A stretch of DNA of 29,965 nt. Origin: a virus. Shown here one piece after another: positions 2,640 through 22,093 of the stretch. The first letter of the stretch is position 1; each line of letters starts with the position of its first letter. Under the pieces are notes generated by a model. The model made no database searches and was not told the origin of the DNA. It was given only the letters and a program-made list of their open reading frames with translations. Where the stretch lies: the IMG/VR virus record IMGVR_UViG_3300035183_001000, positions 1 to 29,965 of that record. One strand, 5' to 3'. A program made the position numbers and the translations under genes.

Positions 2640-3149
2640 TCAACGCAAGGCGTTGAGACTGCTTTCAGCTTTGGCCCAGGGCAAGCGACGCTTGCCCTCT
2701 TTCATTTTGTGCAAGGCCTTGAGCGCATCGTCCACAGTCAGCAGCTGGTTTTCGACCATGGTGCGCAGCAGACCGATGGTGCCCATCACGACGACCTGCT
2801 CCTTTTCAGCAACAATCCGAAGGTTGGCATCGCCCGTCAGAAGCGTGCAGGACTCTTGTTTCGCCAACGCCAGCGCCAAGTAGTCATTATGGCTGGGCTT
2901 GGCGCCATTATTGGCGGGCAGTGCGCTGTTGTACCGACCAGGTAAGCTCGCAGCGTATTTGACGAAGTCGCCACGGACCTCCATGATCTGCAGGCCCAGC
3001 TGCTCAAGGCCCGGCCTGCCCTCTTCAATCTCTTCGTAGTACAGCAGATCAGGGATACCGATCTGCATGGGAAGCCGGAACAGTATCTCCAACAACCCAC
3101 CGGCCTCCATGTCGATCAAGACATTGGCATCACTGATGAGCAACCGCAT
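2640..3149 (-). CDS. PIN-domain ribonuclease, probable toxin
   Basis: This 169-residue protein has the acidic core of a PIN nuclease: D7 in LLISDANVLIDM, E39/E40 in LLYYEEIEEG, D89 in SHNDYLALALA and D107 in LLTGDANLR. PIN proteins of this size are usually RNA-cutting toxins of VapC-like systems. After the core (about 1-125) comes a helical tail with LTVDDALKALHKMKEGKRRLP, typical of the longer PIN proteins of the DUF3368-like kind. The gene starts at ATG 3149, inside the last codons of the HTH-ImmA gene, giving a 20-nt overlap that implies translational coupling, with the presumed antitoxin first. It converges on the integrase without any gap. The nuclease fold is well supported; toxicity and target are inferred. 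Confidence 0.8.
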   Translation of the reverse strand: MRLLISDANVLIDMEAGGLLEILFRLPMQIGIPDLLYYEEIEEGRPGLEQLGLQIMEVRGDFVKYAASLPGRYNSALPANNGAKPSHNDYLALALAKQESCTLLTGDANLRIVAEKEQVVVMGTIGLLRTMVENQLLTVDDALKALHKMKEGKRRLPWAKAESSLNALR

Positions 3150-4209
3150 CCGATGACTCCAGCTGGCGCTCTTTATAGAAACGCATCATCGGAATGCCCA
3201 AGAGTTCTGCAGCCTTGCCTTCAGAGATGTATTGCTCGGCCAAGGCGCGGTAAACCCACTGCTCGAACAGACGCGGATGCTCTTGTGGCAACGGAGCGCC
3301 CGGCTCGTTCTTGCGCCAGCCCTTGGCAGAAAAACGCTTGAGCATCGACAGGTAGATGGACTCGCTGATCACGCCACACTGCTTGGCCCGCTGCAGCCAT
3401 CCCGCCATCGACAGCCCAAACTCGTGCTTGAGCGCGTAGAGCTCTTGCCACTCCAGCGCGTGGCGCTGCTGCCCCAATAAGTGAAGCACTGCGACGCGCG
3501 GGGCCAGGAAAGCACCGGCAAAACGGTCACACGCTTTCTCTTCATCTAAACCCTCGGCCAGCCGCCCCTTCAGGAGCAAGTGCCCCAGCTCGTGCGCCAA
3601 AGTGAACCGCTGCCGGTCCCCTGGCCAGCGTTTGGAGACGGCCACCACGGGATATTCTCGACCATCATTGGTACGAGCCCTGGCGGTCAATCCCGAGAAC
3701 TTCGGGTTATCTTCGTCGACCGCGATGACCAGCAAGCCGGCCGCTTCGAGGGTGTCGGTGAGATCAGCGATGGGGTTCATGCCCAGTTGCCAGGCATTGC
3801 GCACCCGGTCCGAGAAGTCCTCGATCTCATCGAGCGACTCGACGCGCTCTGGCAAACCATCAGGCGGCGCAAACGCCAGCAGCGGCGACTCGGGAAAGGC
3901 GCCGAGCAACTCGATGCGCTTTTCCACCAACTCCACCACCTTGAGCTTGAGTGCATCCTGCGCCGTCTTGCCAAAGGAGGAGAGCTTGCGGAACTCCGGT
4001 TGGAGCAGCTCTATTCTGTGCGCGCGAAAAAAATATTCGGTGCGGATGCCGCACGCACGCGCCAGCTTGAGCAGCTGCGACGAGGATGGCGTCAGCAGGC
4101 CCTTCTCGTACTTCTGGATGGCGGTGTGCGACACGCCGACCTTTTTGCCCAGAGCAGCCAGCGTCAGACCAGCCATCAGTCTAGCTTGACGAATGCGATC
4201 TGCAATCAT
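3130..4209 (-). CDS. HTH plus ImmA/IrrE-type metallopeptidase, probable antitoxin/regulator
   Basis: This 359-residue protein has an XRE-type helix-turn-helix at 4-58 (IRQARLMAGLTLAALGKKVG, SHTAIQKYEKG). After a linker comes an ImmA/IrrE (DUF955) zinc peptidase domain at about 140-290, with the zinc site HELGH at 206-210 and a downstream DEEKACDRFAGAFLAP helix supplying the third ligand (E223 or E224). The last 50 residues contain ISEGKAAELLGIPMMRFYKE, which resembles the short helix-turn-helix tail of UPF0175-type antitoxins that pair with PIN toxins. ATG 4209 is chosen because the HTH begins at once and AAGGGCGTC precedes it; a longer frame to 4386 encodes only low-complexity sequence. The domain order, overlap with the PIN gene and phage-edge position suggest an autoregulated antitoxin that may be switched off by proteolysis. 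The function is inferred. Confidence 0.8.
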   Translation of the reverse strand: MIADRIRQARLMAGLTLAALGKKVGVSHTAIQKYEKGLLTPSSSQLLKLARACGIRTEYFFRAHRIELLQPEFRKLSSFGKTAQDALKLKVVELVEKRIELLGAFPESPLLAFAPPDGLPERVESLDEIEDFSDRVRNAWQLGMNPIADLTDTLEAAGLLVIAVDEDNPKFSGLTARARTNDGREYPVVAVSKRWPGDRQRFTLAHELGHLLLKGRLAEGLDEEKACDRFAGAFLAPRVAVLHLLGQQRHALEWQELYALKHEFGLSMAGWLQRAKQCGVISESIYLSMLKRFSAKGWRKNEPGAPLPQEHPRLFEQWVYRALAEQYISEGKAAELLGIPMMRFYKERQLESSDAVAHQ

Positions 4210-4243
4210 GACGCCCTTGTGGCTTAGGTTTAAAGTACGGCCT

Positions 4244-4272
4244 ATTGTAGCGGATTTATAAACTCGACGGAA
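4244..4272 (-). promoter_or_regulatory. Candidate promoter of the HTH-ImmA/PIN operon
   Basis: On the minus strand TACAAT (4249-4244) is a good -10 box; TTCCGT (4272-4267) lies 17 bases upstream as a weak -35. The spacing to the start codon at 4209 leaves a short leader. Imperfect inverted half-sites (GTTTAAAG near 4228 and TTATAAAC near 4256) bracket the -10 box and could be the operator for the HTH domain. Prediction by eye only. Confidence 0.4.
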
Positions 4273-4363
4273 GCCACAACGCCCGCCCCCACCGCCCACG
4301 ACGAGACAGTGAGGCTTGGGGATCGAAGCCTGAAGCAGTCGCGTGCGGCACCCGCCTCTTGGC

Positions 4364-4825
4364 TCACGTGTTGCGCAGGAAGGCACACTCAGCCTCTCTG
4401 CGCGCCACCAGCCCCGGCAGCACTCTCCCGCCGCCGTAGACCCAGCGCCGCAGCTCGTGCGCGGCGGCTTGCCAGTCGCGCTGGTTGATCCGCCGCCGCA
4501 GGGTTGATGTCTGCAGCCGCCCCGCGCCGAGGTTGAAGGTGAAGTCCACGATGGCCGCGAGCCGCCCTTCCGGCTCGGTCGCCAGCACAGGGCAGTAGCG
4601 CAGCGTGGCGGCGAGCGCCACCTTCAGATCCTGGGCGAGGTAGGCCTCGGCCTCTGCTTCGGTGATCGGCGGGTGTTTGGGGTCGCAGAGATGTCCGTAG
4701 CCGATCGTCCAGTAGCCGGCCGGACAGATGTAGGGATGCGCGCGACCGGGGTCGTGCTTGGGCACGCGATGGAAGCCTTCGAAGCGCTTGGCCAGATCGA
4801 TGGCCGCCTGGGGTACCGCGATCAT
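4364..4825 (-). CDS. Endolysin, GH24 lysozyme family
   Basis: This 153-residue muramidase degrades peptidoglycan at lysis. The catalytic Glu is E16 in AKRFEGFHR, and the T4-lysozyme-type signature PAGYWTIGYGH covers 36-45. T40 holds the usual threonine position. The position normally filled by the catalytic Asp, six residues before that Thr, is Cys34 (ICPAGYWT), and about nine extra residues lie between Glu and this Cys. Later conserved parts are VDFTFNLGAGRLQTSTLRR and a C-terminal VYGGGRVLPGLVARREAE. There is no signal peptide or N-terminal membrane anchor, so it should need a holin to reach the wall. ATG 4825 overlaps the holin stop by four bases (ATGA); a longer frame to 4882 just re-reads the holin gene. 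Confidence 0.92.
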   Translation of the reverse strand: MIAVPQAAIDLAKRFEGFHRVPKHDPGRAHPYICPAGYWTIGYGHLCDPKHPPITEAEAEAYLAQDLKVALAATLRYCPVLATEPEGRLAAIVDFTFNLGAGRLQTSTLRRRINQRDWQAAAHELRRWVYGGGRVLPGLVARREAECAFLRNT

Positions 4826-13336: not shown

Positions 13337-13666
13337 TCACCGCATCGCTTTACCCCGATCCGGCTCGATCGATTTCTCACAATGCCCTGGATCGAGCCGA
13401 TCGAGTAGCCGGCACAGCACGCAGGCCCAGCGCTTGCCTTCACGAGCGGCTTTGCCGGCGCGGCTGGAGATCGTCTCGTCCTCGTGCCCGCCAAACGCAG
13501 CGTTGGCGAGCTGGTCGTAGGACACCGCCAGCGTCCAGGCGCGGCTGGAACCGGTGACGATGGCCAGCAGCATCCACGCGGATGCCACCGCTGCGGCGAC
13601 CTGACACAGCAGCCAGATCGCAAACAGCGACAGACGCTGTCCGATGGCGCGCTGCAGCGTCCGCAT
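13337..13666 (-). CDS. Small membrane protein with CxxC and GHC motifs
   Basis: This 109-residue protein has one long hydrophobic segment, about 13-40 (SLFAIWLLCQVAAAVASAWM), then a soluble part with AFGGHEDETISSRAGKAARE and WACVLCRLLDRLDPGHCEKS. C82, C85, H95 and C96 could bind a metal or form disulfides. I have the impression of similar small proteins in other prophages, but I know no function for them. It starts at ATG 13666 in a TAATG overlap with the gene before it, so it is translated with the fibre cassette, and it ends just ahead of the terminator. A role in lysis, superinfection exclusion or tail-fibre handling are all possible; none is shown. Confidence 0.65.
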   Translation of the reverse strand: MRTLQRAIGQRLSLFAIWLLCQVAAAVASAWMLLAIVTGSSRAWTLAVSYDQLANAAFGGHEDETISSRAGKAAREGKRWACVLCRLLDRLDPGHCEKSIEPDRGKAMR

Positions 13667-14118
13667 TACGCCAACACCTCCTGCACGCGGGCCTCCGACA
13701 GCAATCCAGCCGCCGCCAGCGCCTGCAAGCCGCCCACGGTCTGCGGGTCGTCCAGGTTGATTTCCTGCGCGAGCTTTAGCTTGTCCATGAACACCTCAAT
13801 CAACACGTTGGTCTTGGCCGCCGTGTACACAGCGGCCAGTTCCTCGTTCGTAAAGCGGTTGAGGAATTGCAACTTGGTCAGGACGCGCGGTGCAGAGGCT
13901 GTCGGCTGCGCCTGCGCCGCCTGCTGCTCGGCAATCGCGGCCAGCACTTCTTCGTCGGTTTTGCCCGGGAAGGCGTCAATGACCTTGCCATCCTCGTCGA
14001 GGCGATAACGCGCAGCCAGACGCGACTGCTTGGAAGTCAGCTTGATCCAGCCAGGCTCGGGGGTATCGGTCTCGACGATGGCGATGTGGCCGTTGCGGAT
14101 GTCAAAGTAGGCATTCAT
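13666..14118 (-). CDS. Tail-fibre-associated protein, possible fibre chaperone
   Basis: This 150-residue protein has two parts. The N-terminus (AYFDIRNGHIAIVETDTPEP, GWIKLTSKQSRLAARYRLDE) looks like a short beta domain with proline-rich turns, common in fibre assembly proteins. The C-terminus (VLTKLQFLNRFTNEELAAVY, then AQEINLDDPQTVGGLQALAA) is an all-helical domain of a kind often seen next to phage tail fibre genes. ATG 14118 overlaps the fibre stop (TGATG); a GTG one codon upstream is also possible. Sitting directly after the large fibre gene, it is a good candidate for its assembly partner. I recognise the style, not a named family. Confidence 0.6.
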   Translation of the reverse strand: MNAYFDIRNGHIAIVETDTPEPGWIKLTSKQSRLAARYRLDEDGKVIDAFPGKTDEEVLAAIAEQQAAQAQPTASAPRVLTKLQFLNRFTNEELAAVYTAAKTNVLIEVFMDKLKLAQEINLDDPQTVGGLQALAAAGLLSEARVQEVLA

Positions 14119-15521
14119 CACAGGTTCACCTCCACGAAGAATGGATGCGGGGCGGCGCTGGTGTAGCCGTTCGGAATCGAGAGCGTGAACTGCGTCGGCG
14201 ACACGGTGGCCGTCTGCACCGAGCAGTCGTAGCCATAGACCGCACCGTTGCCGTGCGCGCTGTAGCTGCTCGACGAATTGAACGCCACCGCAAAACCAGC
14301 CTCTCCCCAGTGCAGCAGGCTGCGACCGTACGATGTATCACTGTCGGAGTACATCACTCGGGCGCTGTTGGAGCGCTTGTTGACGGTGATGACCCCAAGG
14401 CCCGCGCCGTAGTAGTAATACTGGCTGTAGAAGGCCACCGTGCTGCCATCGCGGGTCTGCATCACCTGCATCCCGGAGCCCCGGGCGTTGTTCCGGCCAT
14501 AGCTGGTCGTCACGCCATACGACACGTGGTTGGATGGCGTGCCAAACGTCGTGTCGCCAGTGCGCTGGAATCGCACCACATACAGCGCCGAACCAGCGTT
14601 GAAGAAGCCGACGAACACGTCTCCGTTGTCGGTGAGCACGGGCGTGGCCCCACCGACCGCCTCGGCATCGGCCGCCGGCGTCCAGCCAGACCAACTGATG
14701 CTAAGCTGCGTTGGCGTAATGGCCGACAGAATCGCGTTCAGGTCGCTGGTCGCGTCGAGCGTCGGCAGATTGCGGTACAGCCGCAGCCACATCCCACTGC
14801 TGGAGGTGGCGGAACTGCCGCCCAGGATGACGAGCTCGTTGCGGGTGCGGTTGTAGGACGCCGTACCGTAGAAGCCGTTCGGCAAGCTGGGGACAGTGAA
14901 CTTGCTGATAAAGCCGCGTGTGCCGTTAGAGACGACGATCGCCTCGGCTTCGGCGCGGCGCGCCAGATACAGCACCCCATTCCACAACAGTAGCGTCAAG
15001 CTACGGTCAGACAAATCGCCATTGACGAACGCATCGTTGAGTTCCGTCTTGGTCTCAACGCCGTACGACGGGCTGCGACGCGGCAGCAGCAGCGCCCCCT
15101 TCGCGTCTAGATTCCAGTGGTCATGCCCAAATTCGCCGCAGCGGCCCGTGTAGTTCGAATAGCCGTTGCCGTTTGTACTGGGCGCCGCATGCGCCCCACC
15201 ATAACCGAACGCCTGCTGGATGGCCCCATCGTAGTAGGTGTTGTTTGTGGTGTTGTTGGGATACCCATGGTACGCGCCGCCCAGGGTGAACACCGGGTCC
15301 ATCGCCAGTCCGTAGCCGGATGGCGACACTGTGCCGTAGCTGCCGTATTGGCTAATCGCAGACGGCAGCGGCACCGGGTTGACGCCGGGGATGTTGCGCG
15401 CCGGCAAAAACTCTTCGTTGAGCAGCCGGTACGTGACGGCGGCCGCATTGCCACCGAAGTTGCACAGCGCGTATTTGACATCGCTGCGCGTCGATTGTTG
15501 GCTAGAAATGTACCGCCCCAT
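14118..15521 (-). CDS. Probable tail fibre / receptor-binding protein
   Basis: This 467-residue protein is rich in Gly, Ser, Asn, Thr and Tyr, with few charged residues and no membrane segment. It contains dense aromatic-glycine stretches such as NGNGYSNYTGRCGEFGHDHW, GYPNNTTNNTYYDG and FYSQYYYYGAGLGVITVN. Several blocks resemble one another loosely: a short beta run, then Gly-Ser-Asn turns, then a Trp or Tyr strand. That suggests a beta-propeller or similar repeated beta fold. No catalytic motif is visible. It sits at the end of the fibre cassette, upstream of a probable chaperone, where receptor-binding proteins usually are. I do not recognise a family. The start ATG 15521 shares bases with the previous stop; GTG 15524 is an alternative. 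Confidence 0.65.
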   Translation of the reverse strand: MGRYISSQQSTRSDVKYALCNFGGNAAAVTYRLLNEEFLPARNIPGVNPVPLPSAISQYGSYGTVSPSGYGLAMDPVFTLGGAYHGYPNNTTNNTYYDGAIQQAFGYGGAHAAPSTNGNGYSNYTGRCGEFGHDHWNLDAKGALLLPRRSPSYGVETKTELNDAFVNGDLSDRSLTLLLWNGVLYLARRAEAEAIVVSNGTRGFISKFTVPSLPNGFYGTASYNRTRNELVILGGSSATSSSGMWLRLYRNLPTLDATSDLNAILSAITPTQLSISWSGWTPAADAEAVGGATPVLTDNGDVFVGFFNAGSALYVVRFQRTGDTTFGTPSNHVSYGVTTSYGRNNARGSGMQVMQTRDGSTVAFYSQYYYYGAGLGVITVNKRSNSARVMYSDSDTSYGRSLLHWGEAGFAVAFNSSSSYSAHGNGAVYGYDCSVQTATVSPTQFTLSIPNGYTSAAPHPFFVEVNL

Positions 15522-15832
15522 CACGCCACCTCTTCAATGCCCCAAACGTTGAAACAAACATCCGCCGTGCTCGCCTGCACGAACAAACGCTCACCAGCGG
15601 CCAGCGCAATCGCCGTGCGCTCGAGCACACTCGACGACGCCAGCGTCGCATCAAACTCGATCCAGCCGCTCCCAGGCGGTGCATCGCCGGTGCCGACAGC
15701 CACGCGCACACGCGCGTCCGCCTGCCCCGCATTGCAAGCAGACAGATTGACCGTAGCCGACCGCCCGGTCGGTACGGTGTAGAGCACAGCCGCCGTACCG
15801 GCAGCGGGTTTGAGGGTTGCTAACAAGCCCAT
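15521..15832 (-). CDS. Small beta-sandwich structural protein of the fibre cassette
   Basis: This 103-residue protein has a clear alternating beta pattern: AAVLYTVPTGRSATVNLSAC, ARVRVAVGTGDAPPGSGWIE, LERTAIALAAGERLFVQAST and VCFNVWGIEE. Short proteins of this pattern (YTVPxGrxatv...v.a.Ge.lfv.as) occur beside tail fibres in many phages and may cap or decorate them. ATG 15832 is preceded by GGAG. It overlaps the large fibre gene at the TGATG. Its exact role is not known. Confidence 0.65.
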   Translation of the reverse strand: MGLLATLKPAAGTAAVLYTVPTGRSATVNLSACNAGQADARVRVAVGTGDAPPGSGWIEFDATLASSSVLERTAIALAAGERLFVQASTADVCFNVWGIEEVA

Positions 15833-15853
15833 GGGTTGACTCCTTCAAGAGGG

Positions 15854-16381
15854 TTACATCTGCGCGTAGAAAAACGCCCGCGCGCCAAAGACAAGCTGCT
15901 GCGTCACGCTGCCGGCGGCGGCTGCTACATCTGCCAAGGCCGCTTCCTTGAAGGCATTGACCTCGGCGATGACGGCATCACGGTTGGTGTTGGCGGTACT
16001 GACCGCTGCGTCGCGCGCGGCATTGACCGTGTTGACGGCGCTGACCTTGGTGGCGTCGATCTCGGCCTGCGCGGCATTGCGCGTCGCCACGATGTAGCCC
16101 TCAGCCGCCTCCTTGGTGGCGGTCACCGACGCCTCGGCTGCCTCCTTGGTGGCGGTGATGCTGGCAATCGTCTGCGACTCGACCGATGCCGCGTGCTCGG
16201 TGATCTCGGCGATCTTGATGTCACCCATCTCCTCGACTTCGAGGACGGTGGCACGACCGCCGATGCGGTCAATCGCCGTGCCGAGATAGGCCAGCTCCTC
16301 CGGTGTGGCGGTCTCCGCCGCCACCCCGATCTTGGTCTTGATCGCGCGCACTGCGTCGCGCAACAGGGGATCACGTGCCAT
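15854..16381 (-). CDS. Coiled-coil fibre protein with 11-residue repeats
   Basis: This 175-residue protein opens with a helical domain (ARDPLLRDAVRAIKTKIGVA, ELAYLGTAIDRIGGRATVLE). Residues 75-162 are eight tandem 11-residue units: ITATKEAAEAS, VTATKEAAEGY, IVATRNAAQAE, IDATKVSAVNT and so on. The hendecad spacing predicts a long straight right-handed or unwound coiled coil, as in fibre shafts. A short hydrophobic end (LVFGARAFFYAQM) may be an assembly patch. ATG 16381 is preferred because GAGGAG lies six bases upstream; the TTG at 16399 overlapping the previous stop is weaker. It is probably a structural shaft or linker of the tail fibre; the family is not recognised. Confidence 0.7.
   Translation of the reverse strand: MARDPLLRDAVRAIKTKIGVAAETATPEELAYLGTAIDRIGGRATVLEVEEMGDIKIAEITEHAASVESQTIASITATKEAAEASVTATKEAAEGYIVATRNAAQAEIDATKVSAVNTVNAARDAAVSTANTNRDAVIAEVNAFKEAALADVAAAAGSVTQQLVFGARAFFYAQM
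15896..16159 (-). repeat. Tandem 33-bp (11-codon) repeat array inside the coiled-coil gene
   Basis: Eight consecutive 33-bp units encode the hendecads. The first two are nearly identical at DNA level: GCCGCCTCCTTGGTGGCGGT (16104-16123) and the same with one change at 16137-16156, exactly 33 bases apart. The other units have drifted. This indicates growth by tandem duplication. Confidence 0.75.
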
Positions 16382-16395
16382 GTGGGGCTCCTCGC

Positions 16396-16644
16396 TCAAA
16401 AGTCATACCCGTGTAAAGCGCGCAGCCGCAGCCGATGCACGTAGCGGTCGGCGGCCGACTGCTCGGCCGCCAGGCCATCGATCGCACCAGACAAAAAGGT
16501 GCTCACACTCGAGTGCTGCTGCGCCGCCTCGGTGATGTCGGCGTCGATGCGGGTGATCGCCTCGCGCAGTCGATGCACGTCGTCCGACAGAAGATGTGTC
16601 GGGTGCGGCAGTGGATAGCCGCGCGGTGTGCTCTCAGACGGCAT
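16396..16644 (-). CDS. Small helical protein of the fibre cassette
   Basis: This 82-residue protein is not recognised. It has a proline-rich start (ESTPRGYPLPHPTHLLSDDV) and then mostly helix (HRLREAITRIDADITEAAQQ, AIDGLAAEQSAADRYVHRLR). ATG 16644 follows the large DUF4815-like gene after 14 bases. It ends where the coiled-coil gene begins. Its shape suggests a small oligomeric adaptor between fibre parts, but this is a guess from context. Confidence 0.6.
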   Translation of the reverse strand: MPSESTPRGYPLPHPTHLLSDDVHRLREAITRIDADITEAAQQHSSVSTFLSGAIDGLAAEQSAADRYVHRLRLRALHGYDF

Positions 16645-16658
16645 GTTCTCCCCCCCCG

Positions 16659-19600
16659 TCAGACGATGACGGCGCGAAGATTGCGCACCAGCGCGCGGTG
16701 TGCTGCGCTGTTGCTGATCTCAAGACGCACGCGCGTGAGCTTGTCGGCACCGACGCCTTGCAGGCTGCTCGCACGCCACTCGATCTCGACCCAGCCGTCG
16801 CCCACCGGCTCGGCATTGACCGCCGACAGCGTCGCATAGCTGCCTGCCGACCCCGCCTCAGCTTTGGCGGTGACGCTGGCGGTGCCGGGGGCGAACACCT
16901 CGGCGATGACGCGCGCGGTAAAGCTGGCCTTGGCCGGGATGGCACGGCTGACGTAGTCCGCGCTCTCGGCAAGCGTGCCCACCACCAGCTGCACGCCAGG
17001 CGCCAGGATCGGTGTGGCGTCCGGCAGGCCCGTCAGGTCCACCGCCACCTGCACCTTGCCGCTGTAGGGCGCTTGCAGAGACACCGTGCCGCCCAACACG
17101 GTCGACAGCACACGCCCGTCATCCAGCGTCAAGCGCACGCGCGCACCGCAGCCGCTCTTGGGCAGATCCACTGCGCCAAGCACAAGCAGGTCAGTCGCAT
17201 CGGTCACCGACACATCCTGCGCCACGGTGACCGAGCGCGTGGTGGCGCCGGTCGAGACCGACAGCAGGCGGAAGGCCAGGTCTTTGTCCTGGTGTGCCGT
17301 CCACGTGCTGGCGTTGGATGAGGACAGCAGCACGCCGACCTGGTACGGCTGGCTGGTGACCCAGCGGCCATTGGCTGCGTCCCATTTGCCCAGCTCGGCG
17401 ATGGCGACCGAAGTGTCCGCATCGTCGGTGAGCACCACCAACGCATACTCAACGCCCGCCTGCAGCCACGCCGGCAGGTCAAAGGCGATGCGCGTTGCGC
17501 CCGTGGTCTGGATGGCGGATGCATCGATGCGCCCTTCGGCGAGCACCGCGCGGGTTGGCATGCCGACGCTGGTCTCGCGGATTTGCACCGTGACGGGCCG
17601 CGCGCCGCGCACGGTAAACCACAGATCGACCGCCGCCACCTGCTGCGACTCGGGCAAGGTGAATGTCTGCGCCAGCGGATCCCACCGCCAGATGGTGGTC
17701 GTGATGCGCTCGCGGGTCGTCCGCGACACCAGCGTGCCGCGCCCCTCAAAGGTGGCCTCGCCATGACTGCCGCCCGCGCCGTCGATCTCGAAGCGCTTGA
17801 CGCCCGCCGCGATGCCGGTGGGGATGGTAAAGCTCGTCTCCACCACCCCCTGTGCGTTGGCCTTCAGGCCCGTGGGCACCGACAGTGCGACACCGTCAAA
17901 GCGCATCGCCGACACCGCCTCGTTCGGCCCAAAGCCCACGGCGCGCACAGCCACTGCAATCGGTCGCAGGGTCGGGATGGCGGTCTCGACGCGCGAGACG
18001 ACCTCGGTGCTGCGCGACACCGTCCTGCTCTCCAGAAAGCCCCAGCCGCGCACGATGGTCTCTGTGATCGCCGCCGCACGCGACTCCTGAAACTCCGTCC
18101 AGAAGTCGCGCGCCGGGTTGAGCGTGACCGTCGCCGGCGCGGGCAGGATCGCCTGATATGGGTTGACCTTCATCGCGCCGGTGCGCGCGGTCTGCTCCAG
18201 CGCCGTGGTGAGGCCAAATGGCAGCATCTGCGGTTGCGTCAGATACGGCCCGAGCACGGTGGCCGCTATCGGCGCGCGCAGCGCACCGTCCACGATCACC
18301 GCCGATTGCGCTATGCCGGCGTCGCGCAGGTCGTCGTCGCGGAAGGGGTCGGCAAAGACGCCGGCCTTGGCCGCCGGCTCGCGCAGCGTGATGTCCTGCG
18401 TCAGGCGATCGCGCGCCATCATGCCGTACAGCCGCGCGATGTCGTCGCGCATCGACTGCAGCTCGTATGTCGGCACCGCGCGCACCGCGCTGTCGATGAC
18501 GCGCACGGGTTGATCGGCTCGCCAGGTCAAGTGCAGGTCGCACAGGCGCAACAGGTCGGCAGGCACAGCGGGCGGGTTGGGGTTGCGCTCAACAGACACC
18601 CCCTTGATGCGCTGCACCAGGCCGTCGCGGTCGATGACGAGCGCATCCATGCGCGGCAGCATCCAGTCGTAGTCCACCTGCACCAAGGTGCCAGCGACGA
18701 ACCCCTCGACCGTGAAGCCATCTTCGTCGATGTCGGTGGCTGCGACTTGGGCGATGTAGTCGTAGGTGACCTCATACGCCGACCCCGGCGCAGGCTCCGC
18801 GCCCGCAGGAGCCCAGTTGATGACGTTGCCGGCCACGGTGTAGTCCTGCCCGGCTTGGTAAGTCGTGCTGCCCTGCTTGACAGAGAGCACCTGCACCACC
18901 GTCGCATCGGGCAGGGTGTCGGCCGCCCCGGAGAACACTCCGTGGGTGATGGTCGCGGTCTTGCGCCGCGTGCCCTGCACGCGCACGACCTGCGACAGCG
19001 GCGCGTAGTTGACGTTGATGCGCATGCGGCCGTTGGCATCCGGAGCAAACACGGTCGGCTCGGCGAGCACCCGCTGGATGTCGGGGTCGAAATCCAGCGC
19101 CAGGCGGTCGTCGTGCGGCCGCTCGACCTTGAAGCCAGCCACGTTGCACACGCCGGCGGCCAGCGCAAAGGTCAGCTTGCCGTCTTCGCTGCGCCGCCCC
19201 AGGTAACTCACACCCAAGCCGGAGACCAGGTAGTGGCCGTTGGCGTCGTAGTCGTAGCGGGCGAGCATCTGCTTGACGCCGTCGAAGGCCGGCGGGCGCT
19301 CGCGGTTTTGCAGCACGCCATCGACGACGCTCGCCACCGGGTAAAACGGCAGCGTGCTGTTGTCATCGGCTCCGCCGTCGCTCACCCACCCCCACAGCGC
19401 CTCGACCTTCAATCGCCCAGCGCCCGGCTCTTGGTAGTTGCGCACGCCCACCGCGGGCTCGCGCAGACTCGGGTCTTCCAGCTCGGTGATGACGGTCTCT
19501 TTCAGGCGCACGCCCAGCGTCACCTCGCCGGTCGTGGGGATGGTGAACTCGGCCGCCGGCACCTCATGCACCGCGCCCTTGATGTAGATGCGCGCTGCGG

Positions 19601-19817
19601 CCAGAAGCGCGCGCCCGGCGTCGGCGTCGATGACGATCTCGCCGCCGGCGACGATGTTGCCGTCCTTGAGCACGGCATCGGCCACGCCGCGCAGACGGTG
19701 GATCAGCGTGCTCTGGATCTCGTTGAGTTCGCGCGATTGCAAGCCGTCACCCGCGCGAAACAGCAGCTCGGCGTAGCGCTTGGACGGGTCGAACAGGTTG
19801 TAGTAACGCTCAAGCAT
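16659..19817 (-). CDS. DUF4815-like large baseplate/fibre protein
   Basis: This 1052-residue protein begins MLERYYNLFDPSKRYAELLF, RAGDGLQSRELNEIQSTLIH, the hallmark of DUF4815 proteins found in contractile phages. Next come beta-rich parts (AARIYIKGAVHEVPAAEFTI, VTLGVRLKETVITELEDPSL) and helical stretches (YELQSMRDDIARLYGMMARD). The C-terminal 400 residues are beta domains with Ig-like or lectin-like character (LYARALIV-type strands are absent; QTFTLPESQQVAAVDLWFTV and ARVRLTLDDGRVLSTVLGG are seen). It is by far the largest gene of the cassette. The place after gpI and the small collar-like gene suggests that it joins the baseplate to the fibres. The family has no assigned function. Confidence 0.8.
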   Translation of the reverse strand: MLERYYNLFDPSKRYAELLFRAGDGLQSRELNEIQSTLIHRLRGVADAVLKDGNIVAGGEIVIDADAGRALLAAARIYIKGAVHEVPAAEFTIPTTGEVTLGVRLKETVITELEDPSLREPAVGVRNYQEPGAGRLKVEALWGWVSDGGADDNSTLPFYPVASVVDGVLQNRERPPAFDGVKQMLARYDYDANGHYLVSGLGVSYLGRRSEDGKLTFALAAGVCNVAGFKVERPHDDRLALDFDPDIQRVLAEPTVFAPDANGRMRINVNYAPLSQVVRVQGTRRKTATITHGVFSGAADTLPDATVVQVLSVKQGSTTYQAGQDYTVAGNVINWAPAGAEPAPGSAYEVTYDYIAQVAATDIDEDGFTVEGFVAGTLVQVDYDWMLPRMDALVIDRDGLVQRIKGVSVERNPNPPAVPADLLRLCDLHLTWRADQPVRVIDSAVRAVPTYELQSMRDDIARLYGMMARDRLTQDITLREPAAKAGVFADPFRDDDLRDAGIAQSAVIVDGALRAPIAATVLGPYLTQPQMLPFGLTTALEQTARTGAMKVNPYQAILPAPATVTLNPARDFWTEFQESRAAAITETIVRGWGFLESRTVSRSTEVVSRVETAIPTLRPIAVAVRAVGFGPNEAVSAMRFDGVALSVPTGLKANAQGVVETSFTIPTGIAAGVKRFEIDGAGGSHGEATFEGRGTLVSRTTRERITTTIWRWDPLAQTFTLPESQQVAAVDLWFTVRGARPVTVQIRETSVGMPTRAVLAEGRIDASAIQTTGATRIAFDLPAWLQAGVEYALVVLTDDADTSVAIAELGKWDAANGRWVTSQPYQVGVLLSSSNASTWTAHQDKDLAFRLLSVSTGATTRSVTVAQDVSVTDATDLLVLGAVDLPKSGCGARVRLTLDDGRVLSTVLGGTVSLQAPYSGKVQVAVDLTGLPDATPILAPGVQLVVGTLAESADYVSRAIPAKASFTARVIAEVFAPGTASVTAKAEAGSAGSYATLSAVNAEPVGDGWVEIEWRASSLQGVGADKLTRVRLEISNSAAHRALVRNLRAVIV

Positions 19818-19829
19818 GGGGTGGCCTCA

Positions 19830-20522
19830 TCAGAAGGTGACGACGAATTCGAAGGTCTCGCGCGTGGATGGCTGGCGCACGATCGGCACCGAGTGCTGCA
19901 GCAGCAGCAAGATGCCGGGCTCAACGACTTGGCTCGGCACGAAATACTTTTGTCCGGGCGGCAGGCTGGGATCGGTCTGCGTGCCGACGAAAAGGCCCTG
20001 CTCGCGGATGGTGCTGGTGGCGGCGTCTTCGAAGTCGAAGCGCACGCGGATGAAGAGGTGATTGGTGGGGGTCGTGGACAGCCGATAGCGCCCGGTGGGC
20101 ACGACGATCTCGCCTTGCGCGTCGGCAGCGACGAAGTGCACCTCATCCACCACCCGGCGGCCGACTTCGCGCAGCAGTGCGGTCTGGTCAATGGGCTCGG
20201 GCGGGTGGCCGACCTTGAAGTGCACCGTCACATCGCCCTGCTCAGGGATAGCGCTACCGGACAAACGCCGGATCAGGCCCTCGCGCGCATCGACGCTGTA
20301 GTCCACGTCGCGCGTGTAGGTGGTGCCCTCATCGAGCGAGGTCACGATCACCTCATCGATGTGGGTAAAGCCCAGCGCGATGAGATCGTCGGCATCAAAC
20401 GCGGTGCTCACGGCCCGCGTGGTATCCCACACCGGATCGCCCTCGCCGATGGCCAGGTGCAGCGTCTGCTGCTTGATGGCTGCGGCCAGGGCGGCGCGGC
20501 CGCTGGTGGTCAGAATGGCCAT
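19830..20522 (-). CDS. Tail fibre / collar-type protein after gpI
   Basis: This 230-residue protein begins MAILTTSGRAALAAAIKQQT, LHLAIGEGDP, a pattern shared by N-terminal domains of phage proteins that dock fibres on the baseplate. Residues 60-120 are beta strands with DEGTTYTRDVDYSVDAREGL and GDVTVHFKVGHPPEP. Later segments are RVVDEVHFVAADAQGEIVVP, TNHLFIRVRFDFEDAATSTI and PSLPPGQKYFVPSQVVEPGI, typical of proteins that describe fibre attachment. It follows gpI with an AAGGAG-preceded ATG and comes before the DUF4815-like gene. Its exact partner is not known. Confidence 0.7.
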   Translation of the reverse strand: MAILTTSGRAALAAAIKQQTLHLAIGEGDPVWDTTRAVSTAFDADDLIALGFTHIDEVIVTSLDEGTTYTRDVDYSVDAREGLIRRLSGSAIPEQGDVTVHFKVGHPPEPIDQTALLREVGRRVVDEVHFVAADAQGEIVVPTGRYRLSTTPTNHLFIRVRFDFEDAATSTIREQGLFVGTQTDPSLPPGQKYFVPSQVVEPGILLLLQHSVPIVRQPSTRETFEFVVTF

Positions 20523-20533
20523 AAATCAACTCC

Positions 20534-22093
20534 TTACGATGTGAAGTGGTGGGTCTGAATGAGCTCGCGCACATCAAGCCAGCTTCCCGCCGGCCAAGGC
20601 GCGTCGGTCCAGATCTGCCCGCGCCAGGCGGCTGCCGCGCGCGCGAGCGCCTCACGACTGGCTGCGCCGGCAACAGACGGCGCGCTGGCGCGACGGCTGT
20701 GGCGACGGCGCAGCGATGGGGCAGACGCCACCTGCCAACTTGACGCCGCCGTGACGGCGTGCGAGCGCGGCACGACGGCATCGATCGGCCGCCAGACGAC
20801 CTCGGGGCCGTCGCCAAGCGTCATCGCGCCCAAGCGCGGCAACTCGCGCACGCGCCACAGGCCACGTCGCGGTGTGCGCGCTTGCGCGTCGCCCAGCGGC
20901 GCGCTGTCGGACAAGACGATGAGCGCGCGCGCATACAAGCGCGCCCGCCAGGGGGCGGAATTGAGCAGCGGCGCGTTGGCAAGCGTCACGGTGCGCGCCA
21001 GCGCCAAAACGTCAAAGGCGCGCCGCGCCTCGCCCAACCGCAGCCAGCCCAGCGTGCCCGCGCGTGTGCTGACGACGCGCGCATCGGCGCGCGTGCGCGC
21101 CGCCGCCAGCGCGGGCTCGCGACAGCGGGCAGCGGCCCCGTGCACGGCATCGATGCGCTCGAGCACCGGCACGCGGATGAGCCGGTGCGGGGTGTCCGAC
21201 AGCGCGCTCGCCCCCAAGACGATGGGGCCGCCCTCTTCACGCACCCAAAACCGGGGCAGGCAGGCGTTGGTGTCGCCCAGCGGGGTGCTGTCGGATGGCA
21301 CCACCATGGCCCGGCAGAACTTGCGCTCCGGCAGCAGCGTCTGCGCCACCCTCACCCCGCGCGCATTGACTACGGTGAAGAGGTGCGAGTGCAGAATCTC
21401 CTCATTTGGCGTGTGCCCTGGCTCGCCCAGTCGCGCGTAGTCGAGCAAATAGCGGTCGATCAAGCGCGCCGACGCAAACCGCGCGGGCGCATACACGGCC
21501 GCAAGCGTCGCCGCCGGCCACGACTGCGCGAGCGGGTGCACGCGGCCAAAGGACAGCTTGGTCTGCCCATCGCGCCAGAAGACGCCGCTGTGATCCGACA
21601 GCAGCGCCTCGCCCAGCCGGCTTTCGTCGAGCACCAGGCGGCGCACATCCCAGCCGTGGTAGATGCGCGAGAGCCGACTGCGCACCGGGGCCGACAGCCG
21701 GGCGATGGCCACCAGCGCGGCGATGTCGGCATCGTCCTCGAGCACGCGCCCGGGGTCGATCATGAACTCGGCAAAGTGCAGCCCAGGCGTCTCCTGCTCT
21801 ACCTGCACGCGCCATCCGACCCAGGACAGGGCGGTGGCCAGCGCCGCTGGCGTGCCACGCAGGCGCTGCCAGCGGATGCCCTCGGCGATAGCCCGGCGCG
21901 GCTCGGGCAGATACGGCAAAAGCTCGCCCAGCCCGTATTCCCAGATCAGCCACGGCAGCAGCGGATCAGCTGGGTTGACTTTGAAGGTGCGCAGCGCCTC
22001 CGTCGGCTCAGCCAGGCGCGTGAGCGTGTCGGTGGACAGCGACAGCGCGCGCTCCAGCGGCGACGCGTTGGGCGGCAGCAGATGATCAGACAC
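20534..22093 (-). CDS. I: Baseplate protein I (P2 gpI-like) with long C-terminal extension
   Basis: Residues 1-160 match P2 gpI, a wedge protein that also anchors fibres: LLPPNASPLERALSLSTDTL, PWLIWEYGLGELLPYLPEPR, IRWQRLRGTPAALATALSWV and RLSRIYHGWDVRRLVLDESR. P2 gpI is about 176 residues; this protein has 519. The extra 340 residues are rich in Arg and Ala and hold a repeated block of about 50 residues (267-315 and 395-443), each opening SDS(T/A)PLGD and carrying LG..(S/T)LSD/GD and RPV/RPI. The start is GTG 22093 with AGGAGG five bases upstream. The extension probably binds the fibre cassette that follows. Confidence 0.85.
   Translation of the reverse strand: MSDHLLPPNASPLERALSLSTDTLTRLAEPTEALRTFKVNPADPLLPWLIWEYGLGELLPYLPEPRRAIAEGIRWQRLRGTPAALATALSWVGWRVQVEQETPGLHFAEFMIDPGRVLEDDADIAALVAIARLSAPVRSRLSRIYHGWDVRRLVLDESRLGEALLSDHSGVFWRDGQTKLSFGRVHPLAQSWPAATLAAVYAPARFASARLIDRYLLDYARLGEPGHTPNEEILHSHLFTVVNARGVRVAQTLLPERKFCRAMVVPSDSTPLGDTNACLPRFWVREEGGPIVLGASALSDTPHRLIRVPVLERIDAVHGAAARCREPALAAARTRADARVVSTRAGTLGWLRLGEARRAFDVLALARTVTLANAPLLNSAPWRARLYARALIVLSDSAPLGDAQARTPRRGLWRVRELPRLGAMTLGDGPEVVWRPIDAVVPRSHAVTAASSWQVASAPSLRRRHSRRASAPSVAGAASREALARAAAAWRGQIWTDAPWPAGSWLDVRELIQTHHFTS

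Follow-up and report, generated by a model that had tools for sequence, protein, structure and literature searches.

The 467-residue protein encoded on the minus strand of virus record IMGVR_UViG_3300035183_001000 (29,965 bases, analysed at full length and here called the window) is, judging from sequence comparison and a structure model, very probably a receptor-binding tip. It is probably a beta-propeller that sits on a baseplate arm and is swapped between related phages together with the fitting N-terminal domain of a modular chaperone, the 151-residue product of the following gene. Both assignments are supported by the exchange pattern, by replacement of the protein with a glycine-rich fibre protein in sibling phages, and by co-inheritance of the chaperone N-domain. 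In the proposed mechanism, a baseplate arm made of the gpI wedge, a BW3TFN connector, a DUF4815 protein, a hendecad stalk, and a 103-residue connector would carry the propeller at its end, and the propeller would bind a surface receptor, perhaps a sugar. The N-domain of the 151-residue protein would fit a particular tip, its constant C-domain would drive assembly, and the protein would depart before the virion is complete; recombination in conserved flanks would exchange the tip and its fitting chaperone domain as a single unit.

The window represents a contractile-tailed temperate phage, with genes for integrase, portal, S49 protease, capsid, gpV, gpW, gpJ, gpI, sheath, tube, tape measure, gpU, and gpD. 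Among named phages it is closest to AcaML1 of Acidithiobacillus caldus (capsid, portal, and sheath 98-99.6% identical), and in the genome collection searched its closest relatives are prophages of the heat-loving bacteria Tepidimonas thermarum and T. ignava. The genes considered here are five on the minus strand, encoding proteins of 82, 181, 103 (Table 1), 467 (14118-15524), and 151 (13666-14121) residues; the length of 467 is counted from the ATG at 15521 and becomes 468 from the GTG. The second gene overlaps the first by 4 bases, 21 bases separate it from the third, and the fourth and fifth overlap. All five are annotated open reading frames at the equivalent place in AcaML1 (Gp49-Gp53), in the same order and with 72-98% protein identity, and are therefore not chance reading frames; coordinates and tight linkage agree with the original prediction. 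Gene order is identical throughout AcaML1 Gp47-Gp54 (JX507079), all of which are annotated as hypothetical except Gp51, a "phage tail fiber-like protein"; Gp52, the homologue of the 467-residue protein, has no assigned role. The earlier label "unrecognised" for the cassette is partly wrong, given this annotation of Gp51, the homologue of the 103-residue protein. As borders of an operon the five genes are arbitrary, since the DUF4815 gene ends 14 bases upstream and a 109-residue gene (13337-13666) overlaps downstream.

Searches of Pfam, PHROGs, NCBIfam, and PDB sequences gave no useful match for the 467-residue protein, and, in line with the original prediction, no Pfam match to the usual collagen-like or DUF3751 fibre domains. 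The family has a narrow reach by sequence: a search of 50,697 phage records gave only AcaML1 (three records). The protein is rich in Gly (11.6%), Asn (7.1%), and Tyr (6.9%), as had been described, with Ser high as well (10.9%) and aromatic residues at 12.4%. Structure prediction, proposed earlier as a check, was run on this protein. A first model, built on 10 close relatives, was poor (predicted local distance difference test score, pLDDT, 50) and was superseded by a second, built on a diverse alignment of 43 sequences with distant relatives added. The second model has a mean pLDDT of 75.5 and a predicted template modelling score (pTM) of 0.82; residues of about 157-417 are mostly above 85, and repeated strands extend over residues 165-465. 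Beta-propellers make up the overwhelming majority of the structural matches, among them Photorhabdus fucose lectins, Aspergillus lectins, WD40 and kelch proteins, sialidases, and phi11 Gp45. The modelled residues ~157-417 are likely to form a beta-propeller; the best Z-scores, 8-10, make the fold likely at the level of its class. The motif TTSYG...YYYYG.G (residues 338-374) is nearly invariant across the 43 diverse propellers.

The position between the 103- and 151-residue genes behaves as a slot that holds different proteins in different relatives. Relatives were collected using the 467-, 151-, and 103-residue proteins and one divergent T. thermarum prophage. The slot survey comprises the 35 records that show both the 103-residue gene and the next gene; truncated loci lacking either, and matches to the 103-residue protein under about 50% identity, were left out, and three loci cut at a contig end (L058, L064, and L067) were kept for class. 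Four slot classes were found: A, the type of the window and of AcaML1 (72% identical), in 10 records; B (448-451 residues) in 10; C (about 405-415 residues where complete) in 13; and E (about 473 residues) in 2. The flanking genes are homologous throughout. Comparison of profiles relates A to B (E-value 5.8e-8); A and E are weakly related by profile (probability 46, E 2e-4), and their link comes mainly from the shared motif and alignment. B and E appear to be propellers distantly related to A. Class C is an unrelated, glycine-rich tail fibre protein (Pfam Gly_rich_2, E 2.8e-7), for which no homology to class A was found; it matches the PHROG tail fiber assembly family (E 1.3e-25) and three tail fiber families, so the sibling phages with class C hold a recognised fibre protein in the slot. 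The cleanest swap is L056, with class E in the slot and upstream genes 79-97% identical to those of the window. DNA identity spans the end of the 103-residue gene and about 8-11 bases of the slot gene and then stops; the MGR start common to slot genes may be merely the recombination joint. Sibling prophages, two per Tepidimonas genome, differ in slot class: A and E in T. ignava, and A and B in T. thermarum (L197, L201, L202; genomes behind L003 and L004).

The original prediction had the five genes exchanged as one cassette; comparison between prophages gives a smaller unit, the 467-residue slot gene and only the N-terminal domain of the 151-residue gene. DNA of the window and AcaML1 is 96-98% identical in the 82-, 181-, and 103-residue genes, falls to 64% in the first 150 codons of the 467-residue gene and 82% in the rest, and is 75% identical in the first 60 codons of the 151-residue gene and 93% in the rest; downstream, identity is 93% in the 109-residue gene and 98.6% in the sheath gene. 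L006 shows the converse: the N-terminal part of its 151-residue gene (84%) tracks the propeller (85%), and the C-terminal part (65%) tracks the 103-residue gene (63%).

The two chaperone domains were compared between 30 loci (433 of 435 pairs; two identical-sequence pairs were skipped). L063 (no frame found), L030 (slot gene identical to that of L018), and the truncated L056, L058, L064, and L067 were left out, and L008 was added. N-domain identity sets the slot classes apart almost entirely: it is 40-100% (mean 80) in same-class pairs (n=125) and 4-40% (mean 19) in different-class pairs (n=308), the C-domain mean of the latter being 75. Where the C-domain is at least 80% identical, the N-domain mean is 90 in 74 same-class pairs vs 17, with a maximum of 35, in 138 different-class pairs; L007 (class A) and L018 (class B) have an identical C-domain (100%) and N-domains of 29% identity. 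Within class A (11 loci), the partial correlation with the slot protein is 0.63 for the N-domain and 0.26 for the C-domain, and none of 2000 permutations reached 0.63. The 151-residue gene directly follows the tip gene and combines a variable N-domain with a constant C-domain, which is the layout of a modular chaperone. Co-inheritance of the N-domain with slot class gives good support to the earlier suggestion that the 151-residue protein is the chaperone of the 467-residue protein, and we infer that the N-domain contacts the fibre tip.

If the 151-residue protein were a lasting two-domain clamp between tip and tail, and no transient chaperone, the sequence pattern of variable, partner-fitting N-domain and constant C-domain would be identical, and several distant phages have only an N-domain homologue after their propeller genes. 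The clamp is nevertheless unlikely: domain architecture and gene order match Pam3 gp25, which was not detected in virions (PMC9608196) and to which the N-domain of class C can be aligned.

The propeller could also act as an enzyme at the tail tip, cutting a surface polymer instead of just holding it, as a depolymerase, a lyase, or a sialidase-like protein would. Its structural matches include sialidases, GH43 and other glycoside hydrolases, and lyases; three charged positions, R189, E287, and D358, hardly vary in the 43 sequences, and the motif around TTSYG and YYYYG is conserved far beyond the need of a plain adhesin surface. The matches are mixed, however, with lectins, WD40, and kelch proteins beside the enzymes, so that no catalytic site stands out from the fold, and the sequence matched no enzyme family in searches that included Pfam and NCBIfam; an enzymatic tip is quite improbable. 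It is more doubtful still that the DUF4815 protein is the true receptor-binding fibre and the 467-residue protein an accessory or decoration: the DUF4815 protein is large and only 50% identical to its AcaML1 counterpart, against 98-99.6% for capsid, portal, and sheath, but it is homologous in all relatives that show it, replacement by an unrelated protein was never seen, and it diverges jointly with gpI (59%) and the BW3TFN protein (78%), as a baseplate part would.

Several points weigh against the propeller tip with an exchangeable chaperone domain. The class A proteins of the window type, whose nearest relatives are in Tepidimonas, and of AcaML1 of Acidithiobacillus are 72% identical; as these hosts belong to different classes, class A does not track host relatedness. 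Same-class loci share descent, so that the counts of chaperone pairs are not independent, and the permutation test leaves shared descent in. Structural Z-scores are moderate (8-10, with root-mean-square deviations, rmsd, of 4-7), and residues 48-122 are mostly unmodelled, with low confidence. A receptor-binding tip is usually hypervariable, but in class A the first 120-150 residues vary more than the propeller does; the variable Tyr/Gly/Asn-rich stretch of residues about 46-125, mostly unmodelled, may be the contact surface. The 151-residue protein of the window has no detectable similarity to Pam3 gp25 (profile probability 0.2; no PDB match), and the proposed receptor-binding role is drawn from slot exchange and fold.

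Propellers of this family also occur in other phages. A profile of class A, classes B and E, and contig L053, which we take from its gene order to be T4-like, reached 79 viral loci. A wider survey of gene pairing used 68 viral loci from the propeller profile, with 97 propeller frames (1-4 per locus); these loci are redundant, include four of class B, and fall into 13 groups when clustered at 50% identity. In 49 of the 68 the chaperone N-domain comes immediately after a propeller, and no match to it was found elsewhere in these loci; the 103-residue domain directly precedes the propeller in 17. Counted by groups, the N-domain lies downstream in 9 of 13 and the 103-residue gene upstream in 4 of 13. 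In some distant phages only a partner of N-domain size follows the propeller, such as one of 86 residues in L052, where the next genes are presumably neck-like. Five loci (L126, L128, L139, L183, and L193) have between two and four frames of the propeller family, consecutive or closely spaced, which may be multi-adhesin arrays. It is somewhat more probable than its opposite that these proteins form an unnamed superfamily of chaperone-paired beta-propeller adhesins (signature TTSYG...YG.R...DG..VA.Y..YYYYG.G), serving as a plug-in tip in tailed phages of widely differing kinds, ranging from thermophile and acidophile prophages to phages that have T4-like neck genes and up to four propeller frames near one another. 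In the phages considered here the propeller would alternate with an unrelated glycine-rich tip behind the shared MGR start, each swap bringing the matching chaperone N-domain through a crossover inside the chaperone gene.

Upstream of the five genes, gpI, BW3TFN, and DUF4815 (16659-22093, minus strand) form a second mosaic block, 59, 78, and 50% identical to AcaML1. The P2 gpI domain is confined to residues 6-101 of the gpI-like protein, and a PHROG tail protein match covers residues 3-410. The 230-residue protein passes the cut-off of Pfam PF25691 (154.5 bits vs 27); BW3TFN proteins tether receptor-binding proteins to the baseplate (PMC10811340), which fits the place of this gene upstream of the five. 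The PDB relatives of the DUF4815 protein are entries named "ORF65".

The 181-residue protein had been described as a hendecad coiled coil, and its residue identity at lag 11 (37%) and lag 22 (26%), with 7-21% at the other lags from 3 to 23, bears this out; 57 of 2000 shuffles matched its period-11 hydrophobicity power. A heptad periodicity was dropped in favour of the 11-residue repeats. Homologues of the 103-residue protein occur in P-SSM2, directly after a gene annotated as tail fiber-like, and in S-CAM1, after a gene annotated as a polymorphic membrane protein. Beside the integrase gene (2640-4386, minus strand), a helix-turn-helix/ImmA-IrrE protein that matches PADLOC RmrA (E 5.6e-46) overlaps a PIN/DUF3368-like protein, a possible phage-carried defence or toxin-antitoxin pair.

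Table 1. Features of the tip region and adjoining baseplate genes in the window.
Feature	Position	Strand	Evidence
gpI-like baseplate wedge protein, 519 residues (context)	20534..22093	-	Tail_P2_I at residues 6-101, Pfam E 3.6e-15
BW3TFN family protein, 230 residues; connector of baseplate wedge and tail-fibre network	19830..20522	-	Pfam E 3.5e-45
DUF4815 protein, 1052 residues; probable baseplate or fibre base	16659..19817	-	Pfam E 1.2e-176; PDB chain 9euf E 7.7e-69
82-residue protein	16396..16644	-	phrog_20381 E 1.2e-37 (unknown function); 95% identical in AcaML1
181-residue hendecad coiled coil; probable stalk	15854..16399	-	lag-11 identity; weak PHROG matches including tail fiber protein E 0.014
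103-residue protein; probable fibre connector; left border of exchanged segment	15521..15832	-	PHROG tail fiber proteins E 2.8e-11, 2.2e-10; AcaML1 annotation tail fiber-like
467-residue beta-propeller protein; predicted receptor-binding tip; allelic slot	14118..15521	-	model pTM 0.82; propeller matches; four slot classes
N-terminal domain of 151-residue protein; inherited with slot gene	13942..14121	-	75% vs 93% DNA identity to AcaML1; co-variation with slot class
Linker and conserved C-terminal domain of 151-residue protein; right border of exchanged segment	13666..13941	-	phrog_25252 E 3.2e-14 at residues 53-150
109-residue protein, hydrophobic N-terminus; conserved flank between chaperone gene and sheath in most relatives	13337..13666	-	phrog_34710 E 8.5e-57 (unknown function)

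In P2, genes H and G lie between I and FI. The segment considered here occupies the equivalent place, with a probable chaperone gene behind a fibre-like one; it differs in having six genes between I and the 151-residue gene, and Pfam shows no match to the fibre of P2 or to its chaperone. The earlier statement that it replaces P2 H and G holds for position and not for homology.

Propeller receptor binders and modular chaperones are each already known, separately. In the literature searched, subscription papers aside, no propeller tip was found that both goes with a modular chaperone and can be exchanged for a glycine-rich tip; this arrangement appears to be a new version of a known kind. The results give a probable function to a family left unnamed by Pfam, PHROGs, and NCBIfam and present in many environmental viruses. 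The joint between the two chaperone domains is predicted to be a natural crossover point, so only matched pairs of tip and chaperone N-domain should be functional.

The 467-residue protein had been put forward as a new type of receptor binder; a binding role is well supported by slot exchange and fibre replacement, whereas a wholly new type is not, since in phi11 Gp45 (PDB 5EFV) a beta-propeller does receptor recognition at the tail tip (PMC4901313). The Gp45 fold matches the first model of the 467-residue protein (Z 8.2, rmsd 5.3, 210 residues aligned) and the second (Foldseek E 2.3e-4, template modelling score 0.26), with 5EFV not among the 50 matches listed in the other structural comparison of the second model; no sequence similarity between the two proteins was found. 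Gp45 carries stem, propeller, and tower in one chain, whereas the coiled coil here is a separate gene, and the model of the 467-residue protein has no long helical stem and, unlike Gp45 with its tower, no domain after the propeller.

The predicted chaperone resembles Pam3 gp25, the partner of gp24, and Mu Tfa in being the product of a small gene after the fibre gene, with a variable, fibre-fitting N-domain and a conserved C-domain; in gp25 the tip of the fibre is held by a variable N-terminal beta-sandwich, while the conserved, helical C-domain trimerises (PMC9608196). A match between class C and Pam3 gp24 (probability 90) was discounted, since both are glycine-rich and composition may account for it. 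The chaperone N-domain of class C is 32% identical to gp25 over 66 columns (single-comparison E 2e-4). The Pam3 client is a glycine-rich trimer, in contrast to the propeller client of the window; the class C siblings combine a glycine-rich tip with a gp25-like N-domain, as in Pam3.

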